Shown here: positions 4,028 to 22,535 of the stretch, one piece after another
Position numbering within the stretch: the stretch's first letter is position 1
Layout: every line of letters starts with the position of its first letter
NCBI RefSeq assembly: GCF_000685235.1
Contig: NZ_ARYH01000001.1
Span: 1,736,001 to 1,800,000, forward strand
DNA length: 64,000 bases
Direction: 5' to 3'
From: Hyphomonas adhaerens MHS-3
Lineage (GTDB): Bacteria; Pseudomonadota; Alphaproteobacteria; Caulobacterales; Hyphomonadaceae
Position numbers and translations under genes: made by a program
The notes under the pieces: model-generated
What the model was told of the DNA's origin: nothing
Database searches by the model: none
The model's input: only the letters and a program-made list of their open reading frames with translations

Positions 4028-5392
4028 ATGTCTGATCTTGTGACCGGCCGCAAAGCTGCGGGCCGATGGAGCAGGCTGCAACAGCCGGAATACCTGGCGG
4101 CATTGCTGGTTGCGGCTGTGTTCGCACTCATCCTGTCCCACCTCTGGGTGGGGGACCTCCTGAATTCCTACGCCTACATGTCAGACGACAGTTTCGACTG
4201 GGTGACCCAGGGCATGGCGCTGGTGGAATTCACGACGGGAGAAGACAGGTCTGCATGGCCCATCCTGCGGCCGCCGCTGTTCGTCCTGGTCTGGGCAATG
4301 GATTACCTTCTTGAACCGCCGGGGCTTGTCTTCCTGCTTTGCCAGGTGGCGGCGCTTGCAGCCGTGACCTTCGGGATTGCCCGGTTCGCCCGGATCAAAG
4401 GGGCAGGGGCCATCGCTGCTGCGCTCGCTGGTCTGGCTGCTCCCTTTTCGGTTCTGGGTTTCTATTCCCTCTGGGTCTTGTCCGACGCGATGGCGTCCAG
4501 CCTGATGACGTTGAGTGCCATCGTTGCGGTCCTGACGCTCGCACGCCCGGCGCCCGGCTCGCTTGGGGCGGAGCTGAGGCAGCTCGCGCCTGCCATCGCG
4601 CTCGGCGTTGCGGCAGGCCTCACGCAGACCTACGGGATGATCCCGATCATGGTCATCGGATTTGTGCATGGCGCAGATCGCTTTCTGCGCGGCGCAAAAC
4701 CTGCGCGATGGTTCGCGCCCTTCCTCCTTTCCGTCATCACTGCAGTGATCGGGTTCGGGCTCCAGAAACTTTGGGCGCTCGTCATTCCCCACGGCATGCA
4801 GCCTGCGAATTTTACCCTGCTGGAACCGTCACTTGGCATGCTGGATTTCTATATGAATGTCTGGCCGCTCTGTTTTGGTGTGTTCCTGCCGGCGCTCGGC
4901 TGGGCGGCATGGCGCTACATTTCGGCGCGGACGCTGCCGGATGCCGGCTCGCTGTCGCTCATTGGGGCAGTCGGTGCGTTTGCGACGCTGAGCTTCGTCT
5001 ATCAGTGGCCGGAATCGCGGATGACCTACATCTATATCCCGCTCTTCATCGTGATGGTCCTGTCACTGGTGCTGAATGCGCCGGCACCCCAGACGCAGAG
5101 TGCTGCGCGCAGTCCCGCGGCGGTTCTGCTGCCGACATTTGCCGCAGCGCTGCTGGTCACCCTGTTTGTCTTCCCGGGGGATTACTGGCGGCCATCCCTC
5201 GCGCGCACGCAGATTGCGCCGAAGGCGACCTGGATCGCCGCGGCCCTGCAGGCAGACCCGGTCGACCGCTACCGCTTGCGTATCGTCTGCGATGGCATGT
5301 CGGATGTCTGCGACCGCGCCGACGCCGGCCCGCAATCCAGCCCCTACCGCGACATGATGCTCAAGGAGTATCGCCGCCGGCAGTTGGAGTAG
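4028..5392 (+). CDS. Polytopic membrane protein, GT-C/GT39-like
   Basis: This 454-residue protein has about 10-11 hydrophobic segments, the first at about residues 21-42, a short periplasmic loop with acidic residues (MSDDSFDWVTQG) and a soluble C-terminal tail. Acidic residues in the first loop after the first membrane segment are typical of GT-C fold transferases that use polyprenyl-phosphate sugars, but I see no exact family signature. It follows the large glycosyltransferase by 64 bases and probably shares its transcript. Its 3' end overlaps the convergent membrane-protein gene by 32 bases. Function is inferred from topology and neighbours only. Confidence 0.72.
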   Translation: MSDLVTGRKAAGRWSRLQQPEYLAALLVAAVFALILSHLWVGDLLNSYAYMSDDSFDWVTQGMALVEFTTGEDRSAWPILRPPLFVLVWAMDYLLEPPGLVFLLCQVAALAAVTFGIARFARIKGAGAIAAALAGLAAPFSVLGFYSLWVLSDAMASSLMTLSAIVAVLTLARPAPGSLGAELRQLAPAIALGVAAGLTQTYGMIPIMVIGFVHGADRFLRGAKPARWFAPFLLSVITAVIGFGLQKLWALVIPHGMQPANFTLLEPSLGMLDFYMNVWPLCFGVFLPALGWAAWRYISARTLPDAGSLSLIGAVGAFATLSFVYQWPESRMTYIYIPLFIVMVLSLVLNAPAPQTQSAARSPAAVLLPTFAAALLVTLFVFPGDYWRPSLARTQIAPKATWIAAALQADPVDRYRLRIVCDGMSDVCDRADAGPQSSPYRDMMLKEYRRRQLE

Positions 5393-6971
5393 CGGCGCTG
5401 CGCGTTTCGGATCTCTTCAGAAGAACGTGCAACTGGCGCTGATAAGGTCCCGGGAAAGACTGGATTTCCGAGTAACCTGCGTTCTCCGCCGCGCTTGAGA
5501 TGGCAGGGTCCGCCGTGACAAGGAAGTTCGCTGTATTGTTATCATCCGAGACGACGGGATTGGCCCATTCCGTCATGGGTACGTGTCTGAGCGCATCGCG
5601 ATAACGGTAGCCGGTGTAAACATTTGCCGCCCAGGTCCAGGGTATCAGACCCGGAATGTCGGGATCCGCTATGACGAGGTCGACCTGTTCAGCCGGGATA
5701 CCGCCGGACTTCGCTGTACTCACAACCGACGCAAATGCCGGGCGCAACCAAGCAGTCCATTCGTCATCTGTCATTGCTTTCAGATTGTTCGAGTAGACAA
5801 AGATTACCCCAACACAGACAAGCCAGGACGCAGGGATGGCGACCAGGCGCCCTTTTGCACTGGAAAGAGCGTCCAGGAATCCTGCGCAACCTCCGACCGT
5901 CAGGAATGCAATCGGGATGGCGGCAAAGCGAAGATAGAACTTGTCGACCACCAGTGGGGAAAAAACCTCGAGCATTGCCATCCCGATGAAACCGGAGACG
6001 ATCAGCATGGTGTACCGTGTCGGGCCGCGGGCGATGGCGACGCAGTTCATCGCGATCAGAAGGATGGAGAAAGCGGGGAACTGGGCGAAAAGGCGTGTCG
6101 TGTAGCCGAAAATGAAGTTTGGATTCTGCTGGTCGAACATGCTACTCCAGTACGATTCATCGTGATCCAGGCTCTGCATGTGCCACATGGATATCGTCTT
6201 TATCTCGATGAGGGGGTCGCCAAAGGCGATCCACTCACTGACGATCACGATCGCGTACATTCCGACCGCGCCGATGGCAGGCCAGAGGCCAGCGAGGAAT
6301 GCGTCTCTCAACCAATTGGAGGTCCGGGGGCCGGACATATAAGCGAGATACCAGATGATCGGCGCGGAAAAAATGACGACCTGAGCGGCATTGATTGCGA
6401 TCGCAGCGCAGGCGCCGCCAAGCACAAGCGCAAGCCAGTGACGCTTTTCCCCTGCGAGTACAATGATCGCCGCACCAGCCATGAACCAGGCACAAGCGAC
6501 GGGCTCACTCAGGATGCGCGGTGACAGAAGTTCGAAGGGGACGAGCGGAATGGCTGCGCAGGCGGCCAGGGGAAGGAGTTTCGATGGCGCGATCTTTTGC
6601 AGGATCAGAAGGAATGCAGCGCCAGCTGCAACGATATGCAACGGACCGAACAATTTGAGAATTACAGGTCCTGAACCGAACAGGGATTGCATTGCGCCAA
6701 GAGGCAGGATGACCGCCCATCTGAGATAATGGTGGAAGGGCGAAAACGGGGATGGAGGCTGATACAGGCCGTGCGAAAGCTTCCAAGCGGCGTCGATGTA
6801 GAACATGTCGTCCGTCGGACGAGGGCTGTTCAGTTGTTTGGAAAGCACGATGCAGAGAATGAAAACGATCGCGAACACCAGGAAAGCAACGCGCGGAGCC
6901 CACTTTGTGACTGTTTCCATTTCCAAACGGACCGGGAAGCGCGTGTCCGTTTTTGTGCCCGTCTCCAGCAT
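5361..6971 (-). CDS. Polytopic membrane protein, GT-C/GT39-like
   Basis: I chose the ATG at 6971 because AAGGAAAA lies just upstream; an in-frame TTG at 7004 is the alternative. The product is about 536 residues, with a first membrane segment at about residues 26-48 and roughly ten more. The first periplasmic loop carries PTDDMFYIDAAWKL, an acidic pair as in GT39/GT-C enzymes. The C-terminal 120 residues look soluble and periplasmic. It is the last gene of the minus-strand block that starts at 13725 and probably transfers a sugar or other group from a lipid carrier. Its acceptor is unknown. Confidence 0.72.
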   Translation of the reverse strand: MLETGTKTDTRFPVRLEMETVTKWAPRVAFLVFAIVFILCIVLSKQLNSPRPTDDMFYIDAAWKLSHGLYQPPSPFSPFHHYLRWAVILPLGAMQSLFGSGPVILKLFGPLHIVAAGAAFLLILQKIAPSKLLPLAACAAIPLVPFELLSPRILSEPVACAWFMAGAAIIVLAGEKRHWLALVLGGACAAIAINAAQVVIFSAPIIWYLAYMSGPRTSNWLRDAFLAGLWPAIGAVGMYAIVIVSEWIAFGDPLIEIKTISMWHMQSLDHDESYWSSMFDQQNPNFIFGYTTRLFAQFPAFSILLIAMNCVAIARGPTRYTMLIVSGFIGMAMLEVFSPLVVDKFYLRFAAIPIAFLTVGGCAGFLDALSSAKGRLVAIPASWLVCVGVIFVYSNNLKAMTDDEWTAWLRPAFASVVSTAKSGGIPAEQVDLVIADPDIPGLIPWTWAANVYTGYRYRDALRHVPMTEWANPVVSDDNNTANFLVTADPAISSAAENAGYSEIQSFPGPYQRQLHVLLKRSETRSAATPTAGGDTP

Positions 6972-7066
6972 TCCGTTTTCCTTCGCAAAAGGCTTGCAAT
7001 ACAAGGTTGAACCTTCAGGTGCGGATAGAATAAATTGGCGTGCAGCGCCATAGGGAATTGCAACAG

Positions 7067-7810
7067 TTACAGCAGATCAGTCAGCGTCGACCTGAGATCA
7101 CCAAACCGCGAGAATACTGCATCCGGAGTCGCAGCGGCGTCGGGGGTGAACTTTTCCAGTTTGTGCACTTTCTGGAGGGTCGTGCAGCCGAGGGCGTCGC
7201 GCGCACCGGCAATGTCTTTGCCCGGATCATCTCCGATCATCCAGACTTTTCCTTCAACGCCGCCGATCTTTGCCAGCGCGAGGTGGAATATCCCGATGGC
7301 GGGTTTGTCCGCCCCGCTTTCTTCGGACGTTACCATCCAGTCCACATATTTATTGAGATTGAAGTAGAGTAGCTTTCTCAGCTGAATTTGTGCCGTCAGG
7401 TCCGTAACGATAATGGCTGGAATGCCAGCAATCCTCAGGTCGTCCAGGAATTCCAGAACCTCGTCGAACAGCGTGGCTTTGCTGAGGAACGCGCTCCAGT
7501 ACACTTGCTCCATCTGCAACGCGTTCATGGGTTGGGTGGCGAGCCCCGCCTTTTCGAGCGTGCGCTGGAAATAGAGCAGCCGATGGTGGGACGACCCGGT
7601 GGGACCAAGGCGCTGCTTGATTTCGGCGCGGGCGGCGTGGAAACAGTCATCGAAATCTGCCGCGGAGATACGAAGCTGTTGTTCCGCATATTCCCGCACT
7701 GCATCCATGCCGGCGGTATGTGCCGGATCATATTCGTAGAGCGTATTGTCGAGGTCGAGCAAGACGCAGCTTGGCGCTTCGGACAACGCAATAGGGTTCA
7801 ATATTTTCAC
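7067..7810 (-). CDS. HAD-superfamily hydrolase (pyrimidine 5'-nucleotidase-like)
   Basis: The 247-residue protein carries HAD motif I (LLDLDNTLYEYD, nucleophile Asp near residue 20), motif II Thr in VTDLTAQ (about 137), a motif III Lys region and motif IV WMIGDDPGKDIAGA near 195. All catalytic positions look intact, so it should be an active magnesium-dependent phosphatase. DLDNTLY with an alpha-helical cap resembles the YjjG/HAD-IA group. The start is GTG at 7810, overlapping the stop of the upstream kinase-fusion gene (GTGA), which implies translational coupling. A phosphatase coupled to a kinase in a glycan cluster suggests both act on the same sugar-phosphate or nucleotide intermediate; that is inference. 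Confidence 0.8.
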   Translation of the reverse strand: MKILNPIALSEAPSCVLLDLDNTLYEYDPAHTAGMDAVREYAEQQLRISAADFDDCFHAARAEIKQRLGPTGSSHHRLLYFQRTLEKAGLATQPMNALQMEQVYWSAFLSKATLFDEVLEFLDDLRIAGIPAIIVTDLTAQIQLRKLLYFNLNKYVDWMVTSEESGADKPAIGIFHLALAKIGGVEGKVWMIGDDPGKDIAGARDALGCTTLQKVHKLEKFTPDAAATPDAVFSRFGDLRSTLTDLL

Positions 7811-9888
7811 TCTCTGCCTCCAGCAGCGGCTCGCACGCGATCGATCTGACTTAGAATAACAAGCTGAAGCAGGCCGGCCTGATCAGCGTGCCAGTTGGGA
7901 TTGAGGGCCAGGTGTTCAGCCATGCCCGGCGTAAGCTCTGGCACCACACTGCCGATTTGTCCCTTTGTTGCTGTTCCCTCAATCAACAATTCGAACGACC
8001 CATCATCATGGACAAGGTCGATCACATTCAAACCGCAGGCGGATATGAGCAGGCGGGCCAGCGAACGCATGGAATCGAAATGCCGTCCGGATATGCGGAT
8101 GCGCAGGGCAATGTCTTCAGGTGGGAGGTCGAAATCGAGCACATCCTGCTCCCGCACCGGCTCGAGCGATATAACGATGTCGGCCAATTGTTTCTGGGGC
8201 TGGATGTAAGCCCGGCTATCCGGATACCGATCTTCAATCGAGCGGAGGACCTTTTCCGGTGCATGTCCGCGGACCTTTACGTCACGGCGGATCTTGAAAT
8301 AGCGACGAAGCCCTTCGTGCATATCGAGGAAGATTTTCAGGTCGAACCTCTGCGCCAATGTATGCGGATAGAGTGCATGCAGCCCAGAGACGATGACGAA
8401 CTCCCGGGGTTCAATCCGGTGAGGCTTGGTCATTCGTCCCACAGAATGATCATAGTGCGGTGCGCGTACTGTTTGCCGTTCGCTCAGTGCCAGGACATCA
8501 GACTCAAAACGCACCAGATCATTGGCATTCGGGTGCAAGTGGGTCAGTGCGCGCCACATGGGCTTGTGCCGGTCCCACGAGTGATAATCGTCGCCGGAAA
8601 TGGCCGATGAGGCATTCCTGCCGAACATGTCACGTATGAGATCGCTGAGTGTGTCTTTTCCTGCGCCGCTATCGCCTGCGATGCCGACCACGAACGGGCG
8701 CCGCGTCCACAAGTGATAATTTTCCTGGAGGATTTGTTCCCGGAACATCTGGATCGCAATCGCGACAGCGGTCACTGCCAGCAGGGAGAAGATCCATCCG
8801 GTCGGTTCGCCGATGGGAACGAGGCCGGCCGGGAGACTTAGTTCATCCAGATTCCAGTAGGGCGGAATGAGCAACCGGCTGCCGGTGGAGACCAGAAGGT
8901 GCAGGGCCACGAAGCTGATGTTGAGCGCGAGATACAACATGCCTGCCCGCAGTCCCGACTTGGCCGTGTGCAGGGCAAGGAAAACGGTGAACCAGAGTGC
9001 CCAGCCAGGTGCTGCGGGTGTCAGTATGTAAAGCGCCAGGAACACCAGGCCGACCAGACAGAGAAGGCCGTTGACCGACAACCGGCGGATACGCCAGATG
9101 GTGAGCAGAAGCCCGGCATAGACCATGGGCAGCAGATAGAGCGTCAGCCCGCCACCGTAATTGATCGCCAGCGCGATACTCTTCTGCAATTCCGGTGTGC
9201 CGAGTGCCATGGATTGAAAGCCGGGCAGCAGGGCACTGGGGCCGAAGGCCAGCAGGAACACGAGGACCGTTTGCGCGATATAGGCGATGGTATCCTTGTG
9301 GTGCCGGGGCGATCCCCACAAATACGCAAATACCAAGGGAGCTGCGATCACCATACTTATCTTGGCGGCGATCGCGAGGGCGAGGAATGCCGCAGAGAAC
9401 GGAAGCCTGTTTTGCTTCAGCAGCAGCAGGCTGACCGAAAGGAGCAAGGTCGGCAGGATGTCGAGATGGCCATGCCAGTAGCCGATATATATCGTGATCG
9501 GTGACAGCCAATAGAGCAGCAGGAGCTTGCCTGACAGCGCGCGGGAGCCGAATGCCTGCAAGGTACGGAGCATGGCATAATCGAGCGCTATGATTGTCAG
9601 GCCCAGGCCGAGCTTGGCCCCCGCCGCTCCAGCGATGACGTTTCCCAGCACCGTAAGCGGCGCGTATGCGATCACATAGATGAAACCGTAAGGAAAGGCG
9701 TTGCTGGCGCCTCCGGAGGCGACGAAATCAGACCATAAGTCCAGGCTGTTCGAGGCGGGAGCGTGGGTCAGGAAAGGCAGGAACCAGTGCTCCTGGGTCC
9801 ATGGCAGGACTGCCACAACCAGAACGAGCCGGATCAAAAGACCAAGCAGGAATAAAGGAGACTCTTGTTTCAATTGCTCGTTTCCCAC
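7807..9888 (-). CDS. Membrane GT-C-like domain fused to uridine-kinase-like P-loop kinase
   Basis: The 693-residue protein has two halves. Residues 1 to about 390 contain ten or more membrane segments resembling the GT87/mannosyltransferase type. Residues about 395-690 form a soluble P-loop kinase: Walker A GIAGDSGAGKDTLSD near 402, a DDYHSWDR substrate motif as in uridine kinase/phosphoribulokinase, YDHSVGRM and a later IFLDMHEGLRRYFKIRRD stretch. The last membrane segment places the kinase in the cytoplasm. The GTG start at 9888 lies inside the end of the upstream gene (19-base overlap). The kinase substrate could be a polyol, nucleoside or lipid carrier. I know of no well-characterised enzyme with this architecture. 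Confidence 0.82.
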   Translation of the reverse strand: MGNEQLKQESPLFLLGLLIRLVLVVAVLPWTQEHWFLPFLTHAPASNSLDLWSDFVASGGASNAFPYGFIYVIAYAPLTVLGNVIAGAAGAKLGLGLTIIALDYAMLRTLQAFGSRALSGKLLLLYWLSPITIYIGYWHGHLDILPTLLLSVSLLLLKQNRLPFSAAFLALAIAAKISMVIAAPLVFAYLWGSPRHHKDTIAYIAQTVLVFLLAFGPSALLPGFQSMALGTPELQKSIALAINYGGGLTLYLLPMVYAGLLLTIWRIRRLSVNGLLCLVGLVFLALYILTPAAPGWALWFTVFLALHTAKSGLRAGMLYLALNISFVALHLLVSTGSRLLIPPYWNLDELSLPAGLVPIGEPTGWIFSLLAVTAVAIAIQMFREQILQENYHLWTRRPFVVGIAGDSGAGKDTLSDLIRDMFGRNASSAISGDDYHSWDRHKPMWRALTHLHPNANDLVRFESDVLALSERQTVRAPHYDHSVGRMTKPHRIEPREFVIVSGLHALYPHTLAQRFDLKIFLDMHEGLRRYFKIRRDVKVRGHAPEKVLRSIEDRYPDSRAYIQPQKQLADIVISLEPVREQDVLDFDLPPEDIALRIRISGRHFDSMRSLARLLISACGLNVIDLVHDDGSFELLIEGTATKGQIGSVVPELTPGMAEHLALNPNWHADQAGLLQLVILSQIDRVRAAAGGRE

Positions 9889-10466
9889 AGATCCGGGCGT
9901 TTGGTGCAGACGGCATGGAAGGGAATTGTTTCACGAGACAGCATAGCCCGCATCTCGGGGATACTCGCGTCAGCCGGACGGCCCTGCAGTTCGGGGGAAA
10001 CGAGGCACAGTTTGAACCCGGCATCAATCAAATGGTTTGCGCCCGCAGCATCCAGCGGAAACCTGGTGAAACAGTCGACCCAAACCCAGTCGACTTTACC
10101 CGCGAGAGACATGGCTGTCTCGGCGTGCTCGAACTCCGACACACGCACAGCACAACGGCGTTCGCCGGTCCGGGAAGTGCGGATCAGGAATGGAAAGGAT
10201 TGGTCCAGGAAAAAGAAATCCTCAATTCCGTGCTTCTTCATCAGTTCCAGCAGGACGGATTCGAGGCCCTCTTCCTTGACGTTCAGGATCAGGGTTCCGT
10301 GCTTGTAGTGCGTGATCCATTCGCGGAAGTCTTCGCCATCCTCAAAGGGATCATGATGAATGATCAGCTCGCGGCCGCGGCTACGGATATCTACTTCGAT
10401 CCCATACTGAGCCGGTGTTTCCGTCAGTTCCTCGATCGTGTTCTTTCGGTGTGCAATCAAGTGCAT
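9870..10466 (-). CDS. Glycerophosphodiester phosphodiesterase-like (PLC-like TIM barrel) protein
   Basis: The 198-residue protein begins MHLIAHRKNT and continues GIEVDIRSRGRELIIHHDP. This arrangement (first His-Arg, then Glu-x-Asp, then His-His-Asp-Pro) matches the active-site layout of GDPD enzymes. It is shorter than typical GDPDs (about 240-350 residues) and lacks a signal peptide, so it should be cytoplasmic. A GAGGGA ribosome site precedes the ATG. It sits 12 bases downstream of a GT2 gene and overlaps the kinase-fusion gene. A compact PLC-like barrel next to a kinase and phosphatase suggests metabolism of a phosphodiester or polyol phosphate used to decorate a glycan. Activity is inferred. 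Confidence 0.72.
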   Translation of the reverse strand: MHLIAHRKNTIEELTETPAQYGIEVDIRSRGRELIIHHDPFEDGEDFREWITHYKHGTLILNVKEEGLESVLLELMKKHGIEDFFFLDQSFPFLIRTSRTGERRCAVRVSEFEHAETAMSLAGKVDWVWVDCFTRFPLDAAGANHLIDAGFKLCLVSPELQGRPADASIPEMRAMLSRETIPFHAVCTKRPDLWETSN

Positions 10467-10478
10467 ACGGCAAGTCCC

Positions 10479-11198
10479 TCAGGTTTGTTCCCGGTTCACG
10501 GAAAAACGCTTGCGTAGCTGAAAGCTGAATTCCACGGTTCTTTTGATGAACTTGTATTTCGATTGCCAGTTCACATTCCATGAAGACTGGCCCTGTTCGC
10601 GATTTGCGAAATTAACCGGGAAGCGCCTGACCTTTTTCTTCTGCCGTTTGGCGAGCGCGTACGCATAGAGGTCGAGCGAAAAATCGTGCGGCGGAGATGT
10701 CCAGGACTCAAAGAACTTGCGTGAGAACATGGTGGGTTGCGCATTCACGTCGGCAAGCACGTGACCTAGCAGGACTGTTTCGAACACAGTCATGCCCATG
10801 GTGAACACCGTGTCCGCGACCGGGCGTCCATAACGTCTGCCTTTTACGAACAGGTTTTCGGGATCGTCGCTGTTGGTGAAGAGTTTCATAGCGGCAACGG
10901 CATCCATGGGGTCTGTCTGCATGTCCGCGTGAGTCCAGCCGATTATGTCTCCAGACGCGGCTCTCAGACCCGACAGGATGCCAAACCCGTAACCCTGGTT
11001 CACCTCTACCGTCTCGATCCTTATTCCCGGTTTTCCTGCCGTGCACTCTGCGAGGACTTCCGCAGAGTTGTCGTTCGAGCCGTTGTTCACCAGTATGAAC
11101 TCGCAATCGATCAGCGCGACAACTTCTTCGCAACGCTTCACCAGCCGCGGTATTCCGGCAGATTCATTGTAGCAGGGAAGAACGAGCGAAAGTTTCAT
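10479..11198 (-). CDS. Glycosyltransferase family 2
   Basis: The 239-residue protein has the GT2 GT-A fold: LSLVLPCYNESAGI at the N-terminus, FILVNNGSNDNS, and GWTHADMQTDP holding the metal-binding acidic residues near residue 92. It lacks the C-terminal membrane helices of DPM1/GtrB-type enzymes, and its C-terminal half is basic. The family transfers sugars from nucleotide donors to lipid-linked or protein acceptors at the inner membrane. It is second in the minus-strand block, 136 bases after the 800-residue membrane protein gene. Donor and acceptor are not predictable. Confidence 0.86.
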   Translation of the reverse strand: MKLSLVLPCYNESAGIPRLVKRCEEVVALIDCEFILVNNGSNDNSAEVLAECTAGKPGIRIETVEVNQGYGFGILSGLRAASGDIIGWTHADMQTDPMDAVAAMKLFTNSDDPENLFVKGRRYGRPVADTVFTMGMTVFETVLLGHVLADVNAQPTMFSRKFFESWTSPPHDFSLDLYAYALAKRQKKKVRRFPVNFANREQGQSSWNVNWQSKYKFIKRTVEFSFQLRKRFSVNREQT

Positions 11199-11334
11199 CT
11201 GGCTGTTTATACTTTTCGAGGCTGTTGGTCGAGGCGGAAGTGAGGGGCGCTAAACGTAGTCCACTACTTGATTCCGTGGACGATGGTGGTCTTGTAAGCA
11301 GTGATCTGCTGATCTCCAAGCGGCGGTTCTCAAC

Positions 11335-13725
11335 TCATTCGGACGGGATTGTGTACGGGGTGGCAATCGGGCAGCGGGAACCAGACTCCTGATCGACACC
11401 GTACAGGTTCACACTGCCTGACATGACCGGAACGAAGACGGAAAACCCGACATCATCACTGCCGAGTTCCGGGTATGCCGCGGCGACATCGGCCCGTCCG
11501 ATTGGCGCACCGGAAGCACCGATGACCTTGCCGTCACTGTTCGCTGCGATGACGGCATCGAATTGGCTCGAAGGATTGCCATGCCATCCCCAGCCGCCGA
11601 GGACGACCCCTTCGCCAGCATTGCCGGCAATCCATTCTATGACGCCTTCCATGTGAACAGTGCAGCCTGGCATTTGTTTCGGAAACGCCTCGTCCATTGG
11701 CTGTCCGATGAATTCCTTCATGGAAGGCAGCATTTCCGGAAGTGTGTCTCTGAGGTGAGCTCTTCCACGTGCGCCTGCCGGGCGGTTGAAGACGGACATA
11801 ACCAGGCCGGAGGAGGGGTCAGGGAAATCCTCTCTCTCCCAATGAAGATCGGTAAAATACTGGAGTGCACCATAGTCGGCTTCATTATCGACGATCAGGG
11901 CACCGATGTCCCGGTCAGAAACAACCCCGTCGAAATTGACAGACCAGCCGCTTCTGTGACGTTCGTTGACATTGGAGAACAAAGCGAATTGCGAGGCGCT
12001 GTCTCCCTGCAGAACAGCTGGAAATCCACCATACCAGTAGCCGATGTAATAAGGTGTGCTGCCCGGGCTTAGTTCGCGCGCCCGGCTGTAAGCGTGCCTG
12101 AAGTCGAACAGCGCGTCGGCAGAGGACGTGTGAGGCGGGGTTGGGTGAGGAAGGAAACGCGCGCCGTTATGGTCGACTGCAGCAAGTGCGAACAGATTTG
12201 CCGCAATCACGAGGCCCATGGGGGAGAGGCCGAGCAAGGCGCGCGCCCAATTCGGAAGGACTTCTGTTTGGCGCCACTGCAAGTTGGGCAGTTTGCCTCT
12301 TGAGCTGAATAGAAATGCAGACAAGCCAGCCGCCAGAATGGGCGTCGCCAGTTCCGCCTGGTATCTCGGAGTCCCCCACAGACTACTTTTCGTCGGACCA
12401 TAGAAAACCAGGATGCCGAGCGTCAGGAAGCCGACCACTGCGGCGGCAAGGAACGCGCCATGGGTGCTTCGTATACGGATTGCATGACCAAGAAAGAAGA
12501 AAGGCACGAGCCCCATAACCGTGACGAGCGCAACAGCCGGAATGCCGCCGACAAGCGCTGTGAGCACCTGACGGGACGGGGGCGCTTCGGAAATAGCCGG
12601 GGTGCCAAACAGGATGAAGACGAGGGCGCCCGTGACCGCGAGTGCCATCAGTCCGACGAGGACGACGAGGTCAGATGTTTTTTGAGGACGGCGCGAGACA
12701 GCCAGGGCACAGAATAGAAACAGGGGGGCAAGCGCTATAAATCCCGGGGCTCGCATCAGCGCCGCAAGAGCGGTAACGACAGCGAGCGGCACAAGACAGG
12801 CGACGGGGCTGTTGTCATCCTCTGAGGCGGCAAAGAATGCAAATGTCATCCATCCCGCGAGCGGCGGCCAGATCGAGGCCTCAACCAGAGCCGAGGTCTG
12901 GAGAAGGCCGGGTAGACTGGCAATTGCAATGAGGCCAACGGCAGAATTCAAGCGGTCGAGCCGGGTTCTAAGAAGAAAATAGAAGGCCCACATCGCGGCC
13001 AGCAAGCCCGTAAAGCCGGCCATTCGAAACCCGAATGCGTCTGTCCCGAAAACGGCGCTCGAAACGATCAGTGGAAGCAGGCGGAGCGGAGGGTGCGGGT
13101 CACGCATAGACTCGTTTGCGAAGAGTACCGGGAACCCTTCCGATCCCTTCAGGAGCCCCAGATCGGTGGAAAACAGAACCCTTCCGGCAATGAGGGCCGC
13201 AATCCAAACCAGCGCTATCGCAAGCGGCCGGTTGCCCAGCAGGCGCGGTACAACGAAAAAGAGCACGAGCAGTGCGATTACGATGCCGCTGTGGACCAGT
13301 CGGATGAATGTTCCGGCATTCATTTCCAGGCCCGGGGTACCTGTTTCCGGATCACCACCCACCAAGCTGTACAGGAGCAATTGAGCCGGCCTGGATGCAA
13401 TCGAGGCATGGTAGATCGCGTCGGACCAGAGATCAGCGGTAAGCCTCGAAAAAACAACAAGTCCGAGAGCGATCCACGTCAGAAACACTATCAGGGCATC
13501 CACAAGCTTGGTGCCTGGCGGGACCAGCTGCACGCTGAAACTGTTCATTCGAGAGGCATAGGCAAGAGTCAGCAACGCGAGGGCGGTTGCAACGACATGT
13601 ACTGCTGCGAGTGGTGTCCGGATCCACGGGCCAGATGGGAACAGGGCGATAAAGAACAGGGCCATCGCGAGCAGGAAGGCAAAGTTCAGCACCGGCCCGC
13701 GAGATGCTGCTTTCTTGTTCGACAT
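11335..13725 (-). CDS. Large polytopic membrane protein, GT-C-like
   Basis: I chose the ATG at 13725, preceded by a GGTGGGGCG stretch; an in-frame GTG at 13737 is possible. The roughly 796-residue protein has about 12-13 membrane segments over residues 15-510, then a soluble, probably periplasmic C-terminal part of about 290 residues. The first large loop contains TADLWSDAIYHASIA, with acidic residues placed as in GT-C enzymes, and a later loop has MRDPHPPLRLLPL. It is the promoter-proximal gene of the minus-strand block and faces the aldolase gene across a 157-base gap. It is probably a lipid-carrier-dependent transferase or polymerase, and no closer family is recognised. Confidence 0.72.
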   Translation of the reverse strand: MSNKKAASRGPVLNFAFLLAMALFFIALFPSGPWIRTPLAAVHVVATALALLTLAYASRMNSFSVQLVPPGTKLVDALIVFLTWIALGLVVFSRLTADLWSDAIYHASIASRPAQLLLYSLVGGDPETGTPGLEMNAGTFIRLVHSGIVIALLVLFFVVPRLLGNRPLAIALVWIAALIAGRVLFSTDLGLLKGSEGFPVLFANESMRDPHPPLRLLPLIVSSAVFGTDAFGFRMAGFTGLLAAMWAFYFLLRTRLDRLNSAVGLIAIASLPGLLQTSALVEASIWPPLAGWMTFAFFAASEDDNSPVACLVPLAVVTALAALMRAPGFIALAPLFLFCALAVSRRPQKTSDLVVLVGLMALAVTGALVFILFGTPAISEAPPSRQVLTALVGGIPAVALVTVMGLVPFFFLGHAIRIRSTHGAFLAAAVVGFLTLGILVFYGPTKSSLWGTPRYQAELATPILAAGLSAFLFSSRGKLPNLQWRQTEVLPNWARALLGLSPMGLVIAANLFALAAVDHNGARFLPHPTPPHTSSADALFDFRHAYSRARELSPGSTPYYIGYWYGGFPAVLQGDSASQFALFSNVNERHRSGWSVNFDGVVSDRDIGALIVDNEADYGALQYFTDLHWEREDFPDPSSGLVMSVFNRPAGARGRAHLRDTLPEMLPSMKEFIGQPMDEAFPKQMPGCTVHMEGVIEWIAGNAGEGVVLGGWGWHGNPSSQFDAVIAANSDGKVIGASGAPIGRADVAAAYPELGSDDVGFSVFVPVMSGSVNLYGVDQESGSRCPIATPYTIPSE

Positions 13726-13882
13726 CCCGCGCCCCACCGTTGATGTGTTGGTTCTTTACAGGTTCTGGAGTCCGTCAATTTTGTATGCCGGTCAAGCATT
13801 GGTGCCAAGGTAACTCATGGTTGACTGACAATTGGGCGGCGTTAGGTGTAAAGTCTCCCAAAGAGATGATCCGGACGACACC

Positions 13883-14920
13883 ATGACACCTGAATTGCAA
13901 GGGCTACGGGAGGTCTCGGCCCGTCTCGGAAGCGATCCATTGCTGGTGCAGGGAGGCGGTGGGAATGCCTCCCTCAAGGAAGGGGGCATTCTGCATGTCA
14001 AATCCTCCGGAACCTGGATGTCGGATGCGCTGAAAAGGGACATTTTCGTCTCACTTGACCTTGCAGGTGTCCGAAAAGGCGTAAAAGCGGGCGAGGAGGA
14101 TTTTTCGAGCCTGGTGCTGCCTTCTGCCCAAGGGGACGGGCGCCCATCCATCGAGACTGCCCTTCACGCGATCATGCCACACGCGGTCGTGATTCACGCG
14201 CATGCGGTCAATTCGATCTGCACAACCCTCCTGCCTTCGGCGGTGGAGCGGCTGACGCAAAAGCTTGGCGGCATACGGTGGGCCATCGTGCCATATGCAA
14301 AACCGGGAGCCGACCTGGCGCGGGCTATTCAGGATGTCCTGGAAGCAGACGCGCCGGATGTCGTTTTTATGTCCAATCATGGCGTCGTCGCGGGTGGTGC
14401 ATCAGCCCGGGAAGTCGAAGAACGGTTGCGGGACGTCGAGTCGCGACTGTCATTTGATCAGACAGTATCCTCCCAGCCTGCCGTTCAGGCTGATCGTCCG
14501 GATGTGGCTGGGTATCGTTGGCATGATGACGCAGGTTTAGGCGCGCTGGCCTTCGATCCCTCCCGGGCGCAAAAACTGTGTCGCCGGGCGCTCGTGCCGG
14601 ATCAGGTCGTGTATCTGGGCGGCCCGGCAGTTTGGAGCGAAACGGTCGAGGATTTGTCAGACATCCGGGCGGAGTGGTTGCGCTCCAGAGGCGTAGAACC
14701 GCGTCTTGTCTTCGTCAGCGGCTTGGGTGCGCTGGTTCACGAAGATGTGGGATCGGGTGGAATGTCGATGATCTTCCTTTTGGGAGAAATTGCCCACCGG
14801 CTGCCGATCACGGTTGTGCCGTCGATGCTGAGTGTGGAAGACGAGTTGAAATTGCTCAACTGGGACGCAGAGAAATACCGTCAGGCGCTTGATGCTCAGC
14901 GCGGCTCTGCAGGCAACTGA
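13883..14920 (+). CDS. Class II aldolase/adducin family protein
   Basis: The ATG at 13883 fits family starts better than the upstream in-frame ATG at 13832. The 345-residue product keeps the class II aldolase site: QGGGGNASLK and SSGTWM for phosphate binding, catalytic Glu91, zinc ligands His105 and His107 (IHAHA) and His166 (SNHG). These enzymes split or join hydroxyaldehyde and ketone phosphates such as L-fuculose-1-P and L-rhamnulose-1-P. The C-terminal 120 residues exceed the classical fold and may form a second small domain. The next gene, a double nucleotidyltransferase, starts 27 bases later, so the aldolase may make the sugar-like unit that the next enzyme activates. That substrate link is inference. 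Confidence 0.83.
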   Translation: MTPELQGLREVSARLGSDPLLVQGGGGNASLKEGGILHVKSSGTWMSDALKRDIFVSLDLAGVRKGVKAGEEDFSSLVLPSAQGDGRPSIETALHAIMPHAVVIHAHAVNSICTTLLPSAVERLTQKLGGIRWAIVPYAKPGADLARAIQDVLEADAPDVVFMSNHGVVAGGASAREVEERLRDVESRLSFDQTVSSQPAVQADRPDVAGYRWHDDAGLGALAFDPSRAQKLCRRALVPDQVVYLGGPAVWSETVEDLSDIRAEWLRSRGVEPRLVFVSGLGALVHEDVGSGGMSMIFLLGEIAHRLPITVVPSMLSVEDELKLLNWDAEKYRQALDAQRGSAGN

Positions 14921-14947
14921 CCGGTGCCAGAAGAAAGGTGCAGCGAT

Positions 14948-16693
14948 ATGCAGATCGTCATTCCCATGTCTGGCTTTGGCGAGCGCTTCAGGCGTGCCGG
15001 ATACGACACGCCCAAACCCCTGATCCCGGTCGATGGCAAACCCATTATCGCCCACGTGCTGGACATGTTTCCTGGCGAGACGGACGTCGTGTTCATCTGC
15101 AACAAGGACCATCTGTCCAATCCCGACTACCGGATGGCCGAGATCCTGCGCCGTTATTGTCCGACCGGAAAGATCGTGGCGATCCCGCCGCACAAGCTGG
15201 GACCGGTGAATGCCGTCCTGCTTGCACGGGAAGCCATCGACCCGGACAAGCCCGTCGTGGTCAACTACTGTGATTTCACCTGCTACTGGGACTATAAGGA
15301 TTTCAGGCGTTTCGTGACGGAGACCGACTGCGATGGCTGCGTGCCCGCATATCGGGGCTTCCATCCCCACAGCCTCGGGTCGACCTTTTATGCCTATATG
15401 AAGCATACGGGGCTCTGGATGGACGATATCCAGGAGAAAAAGCCGTGGACGGATGACCCGCCGAGTGAATACGCGTCAAGCGGAACCTATTATTTCCGCA
15501 GCGGGGCACTCTGTCTTGAGACACTGGAAAAGCAGGTCCGCCAGGAACTGGACGTCAATGGCGAGTATTATGTGAGCCTTGCTTACCGGGTGCTCAAACA
15601 GGGCGGATACCGCACCGCCATCTATGACCTTCAGCATTTCATGCAGTGGGGGACCCCGGAAGACCTCGCAGAGTATGTCGCGTGGTCCAAAGCCTTTCGC
15701 CGCCTTGCGGTGGATGATGCCGTCCGGCCCCGGCATGGTGGCACGCTGCTTGTGCCCATGGCAGGCCTTGGCAAACGTTTTGCGGACGAAGGCTACGCGC
15801 AGGTGAAGCCGCTTATCCCTGTATCCGGCCGCCCCATGGCCATTCAGGCCACGCGCGACCTGCCCGAAGCGCACAAAACCGTTTTCGTTCTGCGGCGCGA
15901 TATTCCCGGCGTTGAGGAGATCGAGCTGAAGCTGCTGACGTCCTTCGTCGGTGCCGAAACGGTGATGCTGGATGAGGTCACAGAGGGGCAGGCCATCACT
16001 TGCAAACATGGGCTTTCCCGCGTGGCTCCGGACCAGCCCGTGACGGTGGGGGCCTGCGATAACGGCATGCTGTACGACCCGAAAAAGTTCGAAGCCGCGA
16101 TGGCCGGCGACGCGGATGTGCTTGTCTGGACCGTGAGAGGTCATGTGGATGGCAAGATGCGGCCGAAGCAGTTCGGCTGGGTTCAGGCCGACAAGGATGG
16201 TGCCGTCCGCGACGTGCTGGTGAAAGAGGCTCCCGAGGATCCGGCGACGGCACCAATGATCGTCGGCGCATTCACATTCCGAAGGGCGTCGGACTTTGCG
16301 GCATGCATCGATGCGCTCGTGGATCGTGATGGCCGGGTCAATGGCGAATTCTATGTCGACAGCCTGATTGCCGATGCGGTGGCGAAAGGGCTGAACTGCC
16401 AGATATTCGAAATCGATCATTATATTGGCTGGGGAACGCCGAATGACCTGAAGACCTTCGAATATTGGCAATCCTGTTTCCACAAATGGCCATCGCATCC
16501 CTACAAGCTGCAAAATGACCGCCGTATTCCAGGGGCAAGTATTGGTGGATTGGCAGACCGCTACGCCGCGACTGTTCCGGATCGTCCGGAAGGAGTGTCG
16601 GTCAAGACGGCTGAAGCGAAGGGCACTGCGAATCCCCTTCGTCAGATCCGTTCGATTTGGGATTTGGTCTCCGGTTCTTCGCCCAGATCATAA
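14948..16693 (+). CDS. Tandem sugar-phosphate nucleotidyltransferase (two NTP-transferase domains)
   Basis: The ATG at 14948 is preferred because an AGAAAGG site precedes it; an in-frame start at 14924 is less likely. The 581-residue protein contains two full copies of the NTP-transferase fold. The first starts QIVIPMSGFGERFRRAGYD and the second, near residue 265, starts LLVPMAGLGKRFADEGYAQ. Each has a TPKPLIPV or VKPLIPV lysine motif. Late landmarks are also duplicated: NGEYYVS with QWGTPEDL, and NGEFYVD with GWGTPNDL. Such enzymes make NDP- or CDP-activated sugars. The copies have diverged, so they may act on different substrates or one may be regulatory. Confidence 0.85.
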   Translation: MQIVIPMSGFGERFRRAGYDTPKPLIPVDGKPIIAHVLDMFPGETDVVFICNKDHLSNPDYRMAEILRRYCPTGKIVAIPPHKLGPVNAVLLAREAIDPDKPVVVNYCDFTCYWDYKDFRRFVTETDCDGCVPAYRGFHPHSLGSTFYAYMKHTGLWMDDIQEKKPWTDDPPSEYASSGTYYFRSGALCLETLEKQVRQELDVNGEYYVSLAYRVLKQGGYRTAIYDLQHFMQWGTPEDLAEYVAWSKAFRRLAVDDAVRPRHGGTLLVPMAGLGKRFADEGYAQVKPLIPVSGRPMAIQATRDLPEAHKTVFVLRRDIPGVEEIELKLLTSFVGAETVMLDEVTEGQAITCKHGLSRVAPDQPVTVGACDNGMLYDPKKFEAAMAGDADVLVWTVRGHVDGKMRPKQFGWVQADKDGAVRDVLVKEAPEDPATAPMIVGAFTFRRASDFAACIDALVDRDGRVNGEFYVDSLIADAVAKGLNCQIFEIDHYIGWGTPNDLKTFEYWQSCFHKWPSHPYKLQNDRRIPGASIGGLADRYAATVPDRPEGVSVKTAEAKGTANPLRQIRSIWDLVSGSSPRS

Positions 16694-16791
16694 ACAATCG
16701 GGAGCCGTTTCCGCCGGTGCTGATCTGGTGGTTGCACCGATGCGCCGTATTAGACTACAGCAGGTTGGCTGCTGATTTCCTGAGGCTGAAT

Positions 16792-17511
16792 ATGTTTTCA
16801 ATTGCTAAGAACAGTCACTGGCTCCAAACGCTGGCGGCCAAGATGATCACGAGTGTCCACCCGTCGATTCGGCACAATGTCGAAAAGATCGAGGGCCTTC
16901 AGAAGGCTTTCTATCTGACCAACCTGGAAAGTATCCCCGGGGACTACATGGAATTCGGCATGTTCGAGGGGACTTCGTTCATCGGCGCGTTCGAAGCCAA
17001 CCGGAAAACAGGCACGTCTGAATCGCCCAAACGAAAGTTCTGGGGGTATGATTCTTTTGAAGGGTTCAAATATTCGGACGAGAAAGACCGCCACCCGTTT
17101 TTCCGGGAAGGCGACTTCAAAAGCAGTTACGACAAAGTGTCAAAGCGCATCCGGAAACATTTCAAAGATGCGGCTCCTTGGGCCATTACAAAGGGGTATG
17201 TTGAGGACACGATCGGGGGAAAAACAGCCGCTGAAATAGGTATTCCAAAGGTCGCTGTCGCGCTTGTCGATCTCGATCTGGGTGCACCTGCGCGGGTTTG
17301 CCTCGAAGTCATGAGCGGGTCGCTCCAGAGAGGCAGTATCATCATATTCGACGACTATTTCGCCTATCAAGGACGACTCGACAGGGGGGTGGCGAAGGCC
17401 TTCGAAGACTTTAAGGTCGACCATCCGCGTTTCGTTTTCCGCAGACTGTTTGACTACGGAATGGGCGGACAAGCTTACATCGTTGCGGACGATGGTACGC
17501 CGGAAGACTGA
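16792..17511 (+). CDS. TylF/MycF-like O-methyltransferase
   Basis: I start at the ATG at 16792, preceded by GAGG; the frame is open further upstream and overlaps the previous gene only if the 16657 start is used. The 239-residue protein has the TylF signature: GDYMEFGMFEGTSF for S-adenosylmethionine binding, FWGYDSFEGF, a VALVDLDL metal-binding stretch and GSIIIFDDYF. Family members methylate sugar hydroxyls of macrolides or surface glycans and use magnesium. Local GC is low: 29 of 60 bases in the line starting 17101. It likely methylates a sugar of the local polysaccharide. The acceptor is unknown. Confidence 0.82.
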   Translation: MFSIAKNSHWLQTLAAKMITSVHPSIRHNVEKIEGLQKAFYLTNLESIPGDYMEFGMFEGTSFIGAFEANRKTGTSESPKRKFWGYDSFEGFKYSDEKDRHPFFREGDFKSSYDKVSKRIRKHFKDAAPWAITKGYVEDTIGGKTAAEIGIPKVAVALVDLDLGAPARVCLEVMSGSLQRGSIIIFDDYFAYQGRLDRGVAKAFEDFKVDHPRFVFRRLFDYGMGGQAYIVADDGTPED

Positions 17512-17525
17512 GGGCGCGTTTGGTC

Positions 17526-17957
17526 ATGCCGTCTGTCTCCAGTCTGGCGCGCGAGGTCTATAATCGCATACCGGTTTCGGTGAAGCGGTTTGCGGTCGCT
17601 GGCGGCGCGACGGTCGTCGTTGATGCGATTGCGTATTCCCTTTTCCTCAAGATTGGCGTGCCAATTGATATTGCCAAGGCAAGCGGTCTCGTCGTTGCAA
17701 CGATCTTTGCTTATACGGTAAATCGGAACTGGACTTTCTCAGGCTCAGAAGGAAGCTGGAAAAGCATCATCCTTTTCCTGGTGCTGTATGTTTTTGCATC
17801 CGCGTCAAATGTGATCGTGAACCGGCTCGTGATCGACGCAATCACGAGTTTCCGTTTTGTCATTCCGGTTGCATGGTTCATCGCCACCGGGACATCCGCA
17901 ACCATCAACTATCTCGGTATGCGGTTCATCGTGTTCCCGGTTCGCAAAGACACCTGA
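17526..17957 (+). CDS. GtrA family membrane protein
   Basis: The 143-residue protein has four hydrophobic helices and the GtrA hallmarks RFAVAGGATVVVDAIAY near the N-terminus and TVNRNWTFSG in the middle. GtrA proteins are thought to flip polyprenyl-phosphate-linked sugars across the inner membrane for periplasmic transferases. It starts 14 bases after the methyltransferase stop; an in-frame TTG at 17520 is an alternative start. A convergent methyltransferase gene ends 13 bases downstream. It may supply lipid-linked substrate to one of the GT-C-like proteins nearby. Confidence 0.85.
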   Translation: MPSVSSLAREVYNRIPVSVKRFAVAGGATVVVDAIAYSLFLKIGVPIDIAKASGLVVATIFAYTVNRNWTFSGSEGSWKSIILFLVLYVFASASNVIVNRLVIDAITSFRFVIPVAWFIATGTSATINYLGMRFIVFPVRKDT

Positions 17958-20085: not shown

Positions 20086-21042
20086 ATGCATTATGTCCCC
20101 CGTATTCTTGTCACCGGCGGTGCCGGCTTCATTGGCTCGTTTCTCTGCGAGCGCCTGCTGGAGACGGGGGCGGAAGTGCTCTGCGTGGACAATTTCTTTA
20201 CCGGCCGCCGCTCGAACGTCGCCCACCTGATGGAAAACCCGCGCTTCGAGATCATGCGGCATGACGTGACCTTCCCGCTCTTCGTGGAGGTCGACCAGAT
20301 CTACAACATGGCCTGTCCGGCCAGCCCGATCCACTACCAGTTCGACCCTGTGCAAACCACGAAAACCAGCGTGCACGGCGCCATCAACATGCTGGGCCTG
20401 GCCAAGCGGACCAAGGCGAAGATTCTCCAGGCGTCCACGTCGGAAGTATACGGCGATCCGGACGTTCACCCGCAGCAGGAAGAATACTGGGGCAATGTGA
20501 ACCCGATCGGCATCCGCTCCTGCTATGACGAGGGCAAGCGCTGTGCCGAGACCCTGTTCTTCGACTATCACCGCCAGCACGATGTGAAGATCAAGGTGGC
20601 CCGGATCTTCAACACCTACGGTCCGCGTATGCATCCAAACGATGGTCGCGTCGTGTCGAACTTCATCGTACAGGCCCTGCGCGGCGACGACATCACGCTC
20701 TATGGCGACGGCCAGCAGACGCGCAGCTTCTGCTATGTGTCTGATCTGGTGGACGGGCTGATCCGGCTGATGAATTCCGACGATGACGTCACCGGGCCCA
20801 TCAATCTCGGCAATCCCGGCGAGTTCAGCATGCTGCAGCTGGCCGAGAAAGTGCTGGAGCTTACCGGTTCGTCTTCCAAGATCGTCCATAAACCGCTGCC
20901 GCAGGACGATCCGCGCAAGCGCCGCCCGGACATCACGCGTGCCAAGGAAGTGCTGGAGTGGGCACCCACGGTGAAGCTGGAAGACGGCCTGCGTCCGACG
21001 ATTGAATATTTTACCGCCGAGATCAGCCAGCTGGCATCCTGA
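20086..21042 (+). CDS. uxs: UDP-glucuronate decarboxylase (UDP-xylose synthase)
   Basis: I start at the ATG at 20086; an in-frame GTG at 20065 is less likely. The 318-residue extended SDR has the NAD-binding motif TGGAGFIG at residues 10-17 and the catalytic YxxxK within SCYDEGKR (Tyr147, Lys151), a hallmark of UXS enzymes. [12 protein letters not shown] and [12 protein letters not shown] are also characteristic. It oxidises and decarboxylates UDP-glucuronic acid to UDP-xylose. That suggests xylose, or a xylose-derived sugar, in the local polysaccharide. It is followed 49 bases later by a GT2 gene that may be co-transcribed. Confidence 0.92.
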
Positions 21043-21091
21043 ACTGACTGGCACAGTCCGGTTCGCGAACTCAAAGAAGGCGAATGTGTCC

Positions 21092-22096: not shown

Positions 22097-22098
22097 AC

Positions 22099-22518: not shown

Positions 22519-22535
22519 CGCAGGCCCAGCTGGAA

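Follow-up and report, generated by a model that had tools for sequence, protein, structure and literature searches.

In the 64,000-nucleotide window of Hyphomonas adhaerens MHS-3 that we analysed (contig NZ_ARYH01000001.1, positions 1,736,001 to 1,800,000), an island of ten open reading frames (ORFs) at 5361-17957 combines a fusion of a membrane protein with a kinase (K), a HAD phosphatase (H), a short GDPD-like barrel (D), a GT2 glycosyltransferase (B), a class II aldolase (A) and a tandem nucleotidyltransferase (N) with further membrane and accessory proteins (Table 1). We read this gene set, with a probability of roughly one half, as a self-contained, horizontally moving surface-glycan decoration module that would lead from ribulose-5-phosphate to an attached pentulose. 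A first-pass annotation, made from the letters of the window alone, had listed the ten ORFs with the coordinates and strands that we confirm here, and its calls for the GT2 protein, the aldolase, N, the TylF-type methyltransferase and the GtrA-type protein were all borne out by Pfam. The GTGA coupling it had described between H and K is also present, with the start of H overlapping the stop of K at 7807-7810. The start codons of the aldolase (TTG) and of the TylF gene are uncertain, and the latter gene probably begins downstream of the listed TTG.

Table 1. Genes of the island at 5361-17957 and associated genes of the window (aa, amino acids; TM, transmembrane segments).
Feature	Position	Strand	Assignment and evidence
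Variable polytopic protein, downstream of HAD	5361-7004	-	10 predicted TM; candidate acceptor-specific transferase
H, HAD phosphatase	7067-7810	-	Nearest curated family ribulose-1,5-bisphosphate 5-phosphatase (NF053830)
K, fusion	7807-9888	-	aa 1-393 membrane half, GT-C-like; aa 394-693 phosphoribulokinase-like kinase
D, short GDPD-like TIM barrel	9870-10466	-	Foldseek match to GDPD; conserved residues
B, soluble GT2, polyprenyl-phosphate sugar synthase (DPM/GtrB) type	10479-11198	-	Pfam GT2 2.6e-18
Second large polytopic protein	11335-13737	-	12 predicted TM; Hirschia baltica pHbal01 counterpart 34-36%
A, class II (Zn) aldolase, stand-alone relative of RhaD-SDR aldolase half	13832-14920	+	Pfam Aldolase_II 6e-18
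N, tandem nucleotidyltransferase (NT2)	14924-16693	+	Pfam NTP_transf_3, two stretches; N1 aa 8-262, N2 aa 272-535
TylF-type O-methyltransferase, optional accessory	16657-17511	+	Pfam TylF 1e-10
GtrA/DPMS-TM membrane protein (flippase or prenyl-phosphate anchor)	17520-17957	+	Pfam GtrA_DPMS_TM (PF04138) 6e-16; 4 predicted TM
Associated polytopic protein	4028-5392	+	8 predicted TM; Hirschia plasmid counterpart 43%
Associated second GT2-GtrA pair and membrane protein	21002-23183		Between UXS and GalE; 2 predicted TM in GT2; common to Hirschia

A search of 84,980 species genomes for the GDPD-like family yielded 147 relatives, 80 of which were kept for the locus counts, the other 67 lying outside them. 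Around D there recurs a unit of the form NT2 - (GtrA/TylF) - GT2 - GDPD-like - [membrane glycosyltransferase + kinase] - HAD - class II aldolase. In the 80 loci, profile hidden Markov models (HMMs) detected D in 80, the membrane part of the fusion in 77, its kinase part in 75, H in 75, both nucleotidyltransferase domains in 72, A in 71 and B in 68; the commonest orders were N-GtrA-B-D-K-H-A (24 loci), N-B-D-K-H-A (10), A-N-D-K-H (8) and A-N-B-D-K-H (7). Of the 59 loci in which D is flanked by 6 kb or more on each side, 56 have N, K, H and A together, and in 50 B joins them. Because 56 of these 59 loci keep the set together, a chance neighbourhood was rejected, and the scattering among unrelated partners that the first-pass annotation had named as refuting its proposal was not what we found. 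The exceptions are L073, L104 and L114; in the first (G048), N and A are absent at the K locus, and the same contig holds an aldolase-NT2 pair at a distance of about 100 kb. That the gene set is one functional unit we hold as nearly certain.

For family and residue comparisons, the proteins of the window were aligned with 56 of 73 K, 42 of 79 D, 35 of 75 H, 33 of 68 A, 32 of 68 N and 23 of 67 B ORFs. The residue counts below draw on the full sets of these ORFs rather than on the aligned subsets, together with the window protein, and include a 552-residue piece of K from L121.

The first-pass annotation had taken K for a fusion of a membrane transferase with a uridine-kinase-like half. The fusion stands, the two halves forming one ORF of more than 600 residues in 72 relatives, and the kinase half is instead of phosphoribulokinase type. 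Pfam places a PRK domain at aa 400-577 (2e-35), and among NCBIfam models the phosphoribulokinase model NF005655 scores 212.9 bits (6e-63) on the window kinase versus 98 bits (6e-28) for uridine kinase; since this is more than twice the bits, a uridine kinase identity was rejected. Both models match all 57 aligned K sequences, with best E values of 6e-63 and 2e-29, respectively. The best PDB chains for the kinase are phosphoribulokinases (1e-39), the AlphaFold2 model of the fusion (mean predicted local distance difference test, pLDDT, 93.3) has a Foldseek match to phosphoribulokinase at 3e-16, and the top 50 Foldseek matches listed for it are kinases. The phosphoribulokinase fold, the P-loop and the DDYHxxDR and RD...RGH motifs are present; the Walker-A Lys411, Asp433 and His436 are kept in 74 of 74 sequences and Arg440 in 73, residues which we take to have active-site roles in phosphoribulokinase. 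The predicted activity is ATP-dependent phosphorylation of ribulose-5-phosphate. The fusion is in pieces in two loci, L047 (Polynucleobacter necessarius) and L121 (Candidatus Regiella insecticola), and in the latter NT2 and GT2 are in pieces as well.

H aligns over aa 15-239 with positions 4-230 of the 234 of NF053830, the family of ribulose-1,5-bisphosphate (RuBP) 5-phosphatase, at 184.1 bits (3e-54). The next HAD family scores 77 bits on the same protein, and the next-best place of the H model in the H. adhaerens genome reaches 73 bits. NF053830 matches 36 of 36 aligned H sequences, and Asp19, Asp21, Thr136, Lys169 and Asp199 are kept in 76 of 76. According to excerpts of PMC9700705, the haloarchaeal RuBP 5-phosphatase had notable activity with RuBP alone among 12 sugar phosphates; its product was shown by nuclear magnetic resonance to be ribulose-1-phosphate, and cyclised ribulose-1-phosphate was observed.

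By family scores, the aldolase sits mainly among ketose-1-phosphate families: all 34 aligned sequences match the RhaD-SDR (rhamnulose-1-phosphate) family, 22 match MtnB (methylthioribulose-1-phosphate) and 13 match ribulose-1-phosphate aldolase, with the fuculose-1-phosphate family also among the matches. Its catalytic Glu108 and the zinc triad His122, His124 and His183 are kept in 69 of 69 sequences; the family scores are compatible with an aldol, an epimerase or a dehydratase reaction. The families of the kinase, H and A thus point to ribulose-1-phosphate as the compound on which they would converge. A remnant of the Calvin cycle was rejected because no RuBisCO match was found in five genomes, those of H. 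adhaerens and of 4 of 4 other carriers.

The call of D as a GDPD-like barrel is upheld by structure and not by Pfam, which assigns it no family; no GDPD match was obtained in the 43 aligned D sequences at E 0.1. The AlphaFold model (pLDDT 94.7) has a Foldseek match to the GDPD structure 3ks5 at 1.6e-6, and the modelled protein appears to have the GDPD TIM-barrel fold with the His/His pair and the E-x-D motif. D is strongly conserved (56-70% identity to the window protein in the alignment), with H6, N9, E24, D26, H38, N62 and K64 kept in 80 of 80 sequences. Asn62 occupies the position of the Glu in the E-x-K strand, presumably the third metal ligand in GDPDs; the same Asn is found in eight of nine distant D relatives, the ninth having Asp. 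This is one of two departures from intact catalytic residues in the module, the other being the Walker-B Glu of the kinase, discussed below. In N, both domains are complete, with the G-x-G-x-R and Lys-Pro motifs kept in 68 or 69 of 69 sequences. N1 and N2 form two separate clades in a tree whose joining branches are long, so each domain seems to be under its own constraint.

A shorter cassette, NT-D-HAD-NT (NT, nucleotidyltransferase), lacks PRK and the aldolase in L034, L041 and L134, and D-HAD pairs with one or more nucleotidyltransferases, again lacking both, occur in L033, L035, L131, L132 and L133. Several of these sister cassettes lie in polysaccharide loci, some of them on plasmids. A distant DNA search of E. 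coli genomes gave no match for the D, HAD and nucleotidyltransferase genes of the Enterobacteriaceae cassette L133. CJSA_1360-1362 of Campylobacter jejuni IA3902 are neighbours of similar size and kind in Table 4 of PMC7901785, a source represented here by excerpts. An orphan copy of D (L119, 7015-7602; 60% identity) has no partners within 13 kb, and elsewhere in that genome weak NT2 and GT2 matches only were found.

Support for a GT-C transferase in the membrane half of K is weak. Judged on HMM matches alone and counted at E up to 1, ALG3 is matched by 39 of 57 sequences (best 3.9e-7) and GT87 by 17 (best 1.5e-8), and the window protein has neither among its listed matches; both are, we assume, prenyl-phosphate sugar-dependent GT-C families. 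The first outer loop contains an acidic position, Asp50, which 63 of 74 sequences keep. For B the best NCBIfam match is an ArnC-type undecaprenyl-phosphate transferase (54 bits versus a cut-off of 529), and the window protein has no predicted transmembrane segment; GtrB is a prenyl-phosphate GT2 with a C-terminal transmembrane pair. A GtrA-type protein was found by BLAST in 44 of the 80 loci. The products of 5361-7004 and 11335-13737, introduced as two GT-C-like membrane proteins, are polytopic as described and match no Pfam family even at E 1, so "GT-C-like" is for them a topology call only. A polytopic protein lies within 4.5 kb downstream of H in 35 of 62 loci, and, of nine polytopic proteins scanned, one gave a weak PMT_2 match, below its cut-off.

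From these parts we propose that the module probably makes a rare five-carbon sugar and attaches it to the bacterial surface; that this sugar is built from a pentose phosphate via a bisphosphate we consider likely. The PRK domain would convert ribulose-5-phosphate to RuBP, and H would strip the 5-phosphate to give ribulose-1-phosphate, which leaves O5 free for furanose closure. The aldolase would then act on this ketose-1-phosphate, most likely as a retro-aldol/aldol C4 epimerase turning D-ribulose-1-phosphate into L-xylulose-1-phosphate; alternatively, it may make L-xylulose-1-phosphate from dihydroxyacetone phosphate (DHAP) and glycolaldehyde. N1 and N2, together with the GDPD-like enzyme, would yield a nucleotide-activated pentulose, which the GT2 protein with GtrA would load on prenyl phosphate and carry to the periplasmic face. 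Finally, the GT-C half of the fusion, a variable GT-C protein (e.g. that of 5361-7004) or both would transfer the pentulose to a surface polysaccharide. The first two steps are the best supported; the third, the fourth and the stereochemistry of the sugar are the weakest. The first-pass annotation had supposed a glycan island with an undescribed sugar route, which our results support, and a small phosphorylated or methylated substituent as its product, which they do not. By analogy with the heptose pathways considered below, it is more probable that the kinase and phosphatase shift the phosphate from C5 to C1 than that the product retains it, and methylation is an optional modification, since a TylF relative occurs in at most 9 of the 80 related loci.

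The fourth step raises a chemical difficulty. Ketose C1 kinases phosphorylate a primary hydroxyl and not the anomeric carbon, and a nucleoside diphosphate (NDP) at C1 would thus be no glycosyl donor, though B and the GT-C half look donor-dependent. A surplus second nucleotidyltransferase domain and a phosphodiesterase fold are putatively the parts fit for a move of the phosphate from C1 to C2. Tentatively, and with far more doubt than belief, we suggest that an NT-GDPD-like-HAD-NT core places NDP at C1 by means of one nucleotidyltransferase, that D closes it onto the adjacent anomeric O2 to form a 1,2-cyclic phosphate as enzymes of the GDPD/PLC fold presumably do, and that opening of the ring gives an anomeric phosphate from which the second nucleotidyltransferase makes an NDP-2-ketose donor.

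Two variant loci bear on how the ketose-1-phosphate might be obtained. L038 (G123) and L039 (G254) represent the same locus in two congeners. Apart from D they have seven genes in common, which are 72-88% identical, and their flanking genes are 78-88% identical. In L039 the fusion adjoins D; in L038 it is absent, and no fusion match was found in that genome, which is 71% complete. Instead, L038 encodes, on the opposite strand and in the interval from B to N, an FGGY kinase (FGGY_C_2 3.8e-41, L-fuculokinase 1.4e-4), an ASRT protein and a RhaI-type isomerase (556 bits versus a cut-off of 647). The isomerase and a ketose-1-kinase would be an alternative way to a ketose-1-phosphate.

A number of results weigh against the proposed pathway. 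The scores of the two enzymes that open it lie below the curated cut-offs, 212.9 versus 236 bits for the kinase (NF005655) and 184.1 versus 330 for H (NF053830), and two general HAD families also match all 36 H sequences. Aldolase sequences match families acting on 4- and 5-phosphates as well, namely ribulose-5-phosphate 4-epimerase (6 of 34) and oxo-tetronate-4-phosphate decarboxylase (14 of 34). At the position of the phosphoribulokinase Walker-B Glu (EGLH), which we take to be a metal ligand, the 74 K sequences have Ser in 59 cases, Thr in 12, another residue in three and Glu in none, so the kinase may use another sugar phosphate or another metal site. The existence of NT-D-HAD-NT sets without PRK and aldolase implies that D, HAD and the nucleotidyltransferases are not specific to a pentulose, and the fourth step needs an extra, hypothetical move of the phosphate from C1 to the anomeric C2. 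The set is also not intact everywhere: no N match was found in the genome of L104 (G806) and weak nucleotidyltransferase matches only in that of L114 (G807); B is absent from 12 of 80 loci, two of which run into the end of a contig, and no close B was found elsewhere in six of six searched genomes of such loci. In L040, N, B, A and a distant D are retained and the genome gives no match to K; in the 20 kb of L039 no HAD match was obtained, and the aldolase is a piece of 237 residues only. The kinase/isomerase pair of L038, one weak case, could simply serve the catabolism of rhamnose. Among the carriers, none with a known glycan structure was found.

Of the competing explanations, the one that survives best is an aldopentose route, which we consider unlikely: the kinase would act on C1 of ribose-5-phosphate or arabinose-5-phosphate, H would give a pentofuranose-1-phosphate, N an NDP-pentofuranose, and B and K would attach ribofuranose or arabinofuranose. 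Such a route requires no move of the phosphate, fits the heptose logic exactly and supplies an anomeric phosphate usable by a DPM-type GT2 and a GT-C enzyme; the altered Walker-B site could mark the changed substrate. It leaves unexplained, however, the conserved aldolase with its uniform match to ketose-1-phosphate families (34 of 34 sequences), the second nucleotidyltransferase domain and the GDPD-like enzyme, and it sits poorly with the preference for RuBP over the other sugar phosphates reported in PMC9700705 (in excerpt) for the nearest characterised HAD enzyme.

That the product is instead a phosphodiester unit seems to us quite improbable, although among the alternatives this one comes nearest to the phosphorylated substituent of the first-pass annotation. 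In that case N would make a C1-linked NDP-ribulose, comparable to CDP-glycerol and CDP-ribitol, from which ribulose-1-phosphate would be transferred, and the GDPD-like enzyme would edit or recycle it. The placement of the phosphate at C1 by phosphoribulokinase chemistry, as known for the family, and the phosphodiesterase fold of D suit this explanation; the DPM/GtrB type of B and the resemblance of the fused membrane half to prenyl-phosphate-sugar GT-C enzymes do not, and no TagF-type phosphotransferase appeared among the Pfam matches of the proteins scanned from 37-24459.

We give only a slim chance to the idea that the PRK domain has lost its kinase activity or is regulatory, the module making an unrelated sugar by HAD, nucleotidyltransferase and GDPD steps. 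The absence of the Walker-B Glu from all 74 sequences, the kinase-less NT-D-HAD-NT sets and the lack of a K match in the genomes of L040 and L038 all speak for it, and the near-invariance of Lys411, Asp433, His436 and Arg440 would argue for retained catalysis. A catabolic non-carboxylating pentose bisphosphate route (RuBP to ribulose-1-phosphate to DHAP and glycolaldehyde) lying merely beside glycan genes shares its HAD-then-aldolase chemistry with haloarchaea (PMC9700705, in excerpt) and is very improbable, as NT2 and the GT-C-kinase fusion stay with H and A in 56 of 59 loci, in 50 of them with GT2 too, and a kinase joined to a membrane transferase fits catabolism poorly.

The decoration module that we favour is accessory and moves horizontally. 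The gene-neighbourhood search proposed with the first-pass annotation found the same unit patchily distributed among Proteobacteria, and also in records that carry the labels of several other phyla. Carriers include Hirschia, Roseomonas, Azospirillum (plasmid), Polynucleobacter, Massilia, Rugamonas, Herbaspirillum, Pseudomonas, Lysobacter and Yersinia proxima, together with metagenome-assembled genomes labelled Nitrospira, Acidobacteria, Planctomycetia, Bacteroidetes, cyanobacterium and Geobacter; these phyla rest on the titles of records that are mostly such assemblies, in which binning errors are possible. Full-length K is present in the H. adhaerens genome and in 2 of 19 members of its family, and in none of 41 genus-mates, whose matches are short ones to the kinase domain. 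D of module strength occurs in 1 of 25 genomes of the genus Yersinia and 2 of 298 of Pseudomonas, with distant D relatives only in one and nine further genomes, respectively. The right flank of the island is syntenic in genus-mates without it: in five of them, BLAST at E 1e-20 recovered the genes from 18937 rightward (PAH in all five, with UXS in four and GalE in four) and no island gene left of PAH, where the stretch inspected measured about 10 kb in four of the genomes and 2 kb in the remaining one.

Copies of the module are found on Hirschia baltica pHbal01, Azospirillum brasilense p5 and an E. coli IncR plasmid. Among 5426 E. coli genomes, two have it, both on plasmids. The IncR copy, from human stool (L124, NZ_CP145712.1, 6022-14984), is a complete module with a further membrane protein and is 100.0% identical to the E. 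coli plasmid copy from a bullfrog source. It is on the absence of K from the 41 genus-mates, the flank that is syntenic without the island, and the plasmid copies that we base the accessory status of the island, and the horizontal transfer suspected at first is thus supported. The G+C dip that had prompted this suspicion is real and modest (0.571 over 5361-17957 versus 0.624 in the rest of the window), a content this low being found in 2 of 258 stepped windows of equal length. Two vehicles were considered and set aside. For carriage by phages, a distant search of a phage collection, at the DNA level only, gave no match for 4,440 bases taken from the copy on the E. coli plasmid. Integration at a tRNA gene was dropped because the end of the tRNA-Met at 23227-23303 has no copy in 1-30000 (repeats of minimum length 22) and because the genus comparison puts the edge of the island left of 18937. 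In Pseudomonas piscis MC042, one assembly holds two loci (L108 and L109) with identical fusion proteins, perhaps a recent duplication.

Beside the island, a single-chain protein of 1308 residues (37-3963) joins a GT2 domain with domains of GT4/GT1 type. UXS and GalE, which flank 21002-23183 in the window, adjoin each other in three genus-mates, and on Hirschia pHbal01 UXS and three genes matching 21002-23183 adjoin the module.

The module is real, conserved, mobile and undescribed in the literature examined; among the matches listed in open-licence literature, none describes the gene set. Nor did the listed matches, seen as excerpts, contain a bacterial route for activating pentuloses such as xylulose for surface polysaccharides, and the module is a concrete candidate for one. 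Xylulose itself is reported, in excerpts of PMC8707391 and PMC11380512, from polysaccharides of Yersinia enterocolitica O:10, E. coli O95, C. jejuni RM1221, Eubacterium saburreum T15 and Devosia submarina KMM 9415; for xylulofuranose, PMC8707391 gives a C-2 signal near 107 ppm. In the O:10 strain it is an L-xylulose side chain on a D-rhamnan, and the excerpts of PMC11380512 name transferases for xylulose and no genes for its synthesis. These polysaccharides resemble the proposed product in having a pentulofuranose at the surface. E. coli genomes match the module on the two plasmids only, in a collection where the presence of an O95 strain is uncertain and a diverged version would be missed. 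An analogy with the fructose branch of C. jejuni HS1 was dropped: in the excerpts of PMC7901785 and PMC11924219 fructose transfer is assigned to one protein, HS1.08, so there is no direct parallel.

If the pathway is right, seven genes that stay together across distant bacteria would divert ribulose-5-phosphate through RuBP in cells without RuBisCO. We know of no earlier use of RuBP for building a surface sugar. The activation step would be a new way to activate ketoses, and the sister NT-D-HAD-NT cassettes without PRK would use ketose bisphosphates of central metabolism. Glycan islands can contain proteins annotated as phosphoribulokinase or uridine kinase, so such annotations should not be read as evidence of a Calvin cycle. 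The plasmid copies, one of them on an E. coli IncR plasmid, make the module a mobile unit of surface variation.

Among known systems, the GtrABC systems of O-antigen modification consist of GtrA, a prenyl-phosphate GT2 and a variable polytopic transferase on accessory islands. The island shares with them a GtrA-type protein, a GT2 of prenyl-phosphate type and its accessory nature, and its variable polytopic protein is a candidate for the transferase; unlike them, its B has no transmembrane segment, it would have a donor pathway of its own, and one of its transferases is fused to a kinase. In ADP- and GDP-heptose synthesis, a kinase makes a bisphosphate, a HAD enzyme removes the distal phosphate and a nucleotidyltransferase activates the 1-phosphate; the proposed route would follow the same order of reactions, on a ketopentose rather than an aldoheptose and with extra steps to reach the anomeric centre. 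With the phosphoribulokinase of the Calvin cycle the island kinase shares the fold, the P-loop and the DDYHxxDR and RD...RGH motifs, and it differs in its fusion to a membrane glycosyltransferase, in the change of the Walker-B Glu to Ser/Thr and in the lack of RuBisCO in five genomes. As in the haloarchaeal non-carboxylating pentose bisphosphate pathway (PMC9700705, in excerpt), a RuBP 5-phosphatase-like HAD protein and a class II aldolase would act around ribulose-1-phosphate; in contrast to it, RuBP would come from phosphoribulokinase and not from ribose-1,5-bisphosphate isomerase, the route would end in a glycan and not in DHAP and ethylene glycol, and the aldolase is distantly related. Our best reading is that the module would work like a GtrABC decoration system with its own donor pathway, applying the heptose-style logic of kinase and then phosphatase to a ketopentose.

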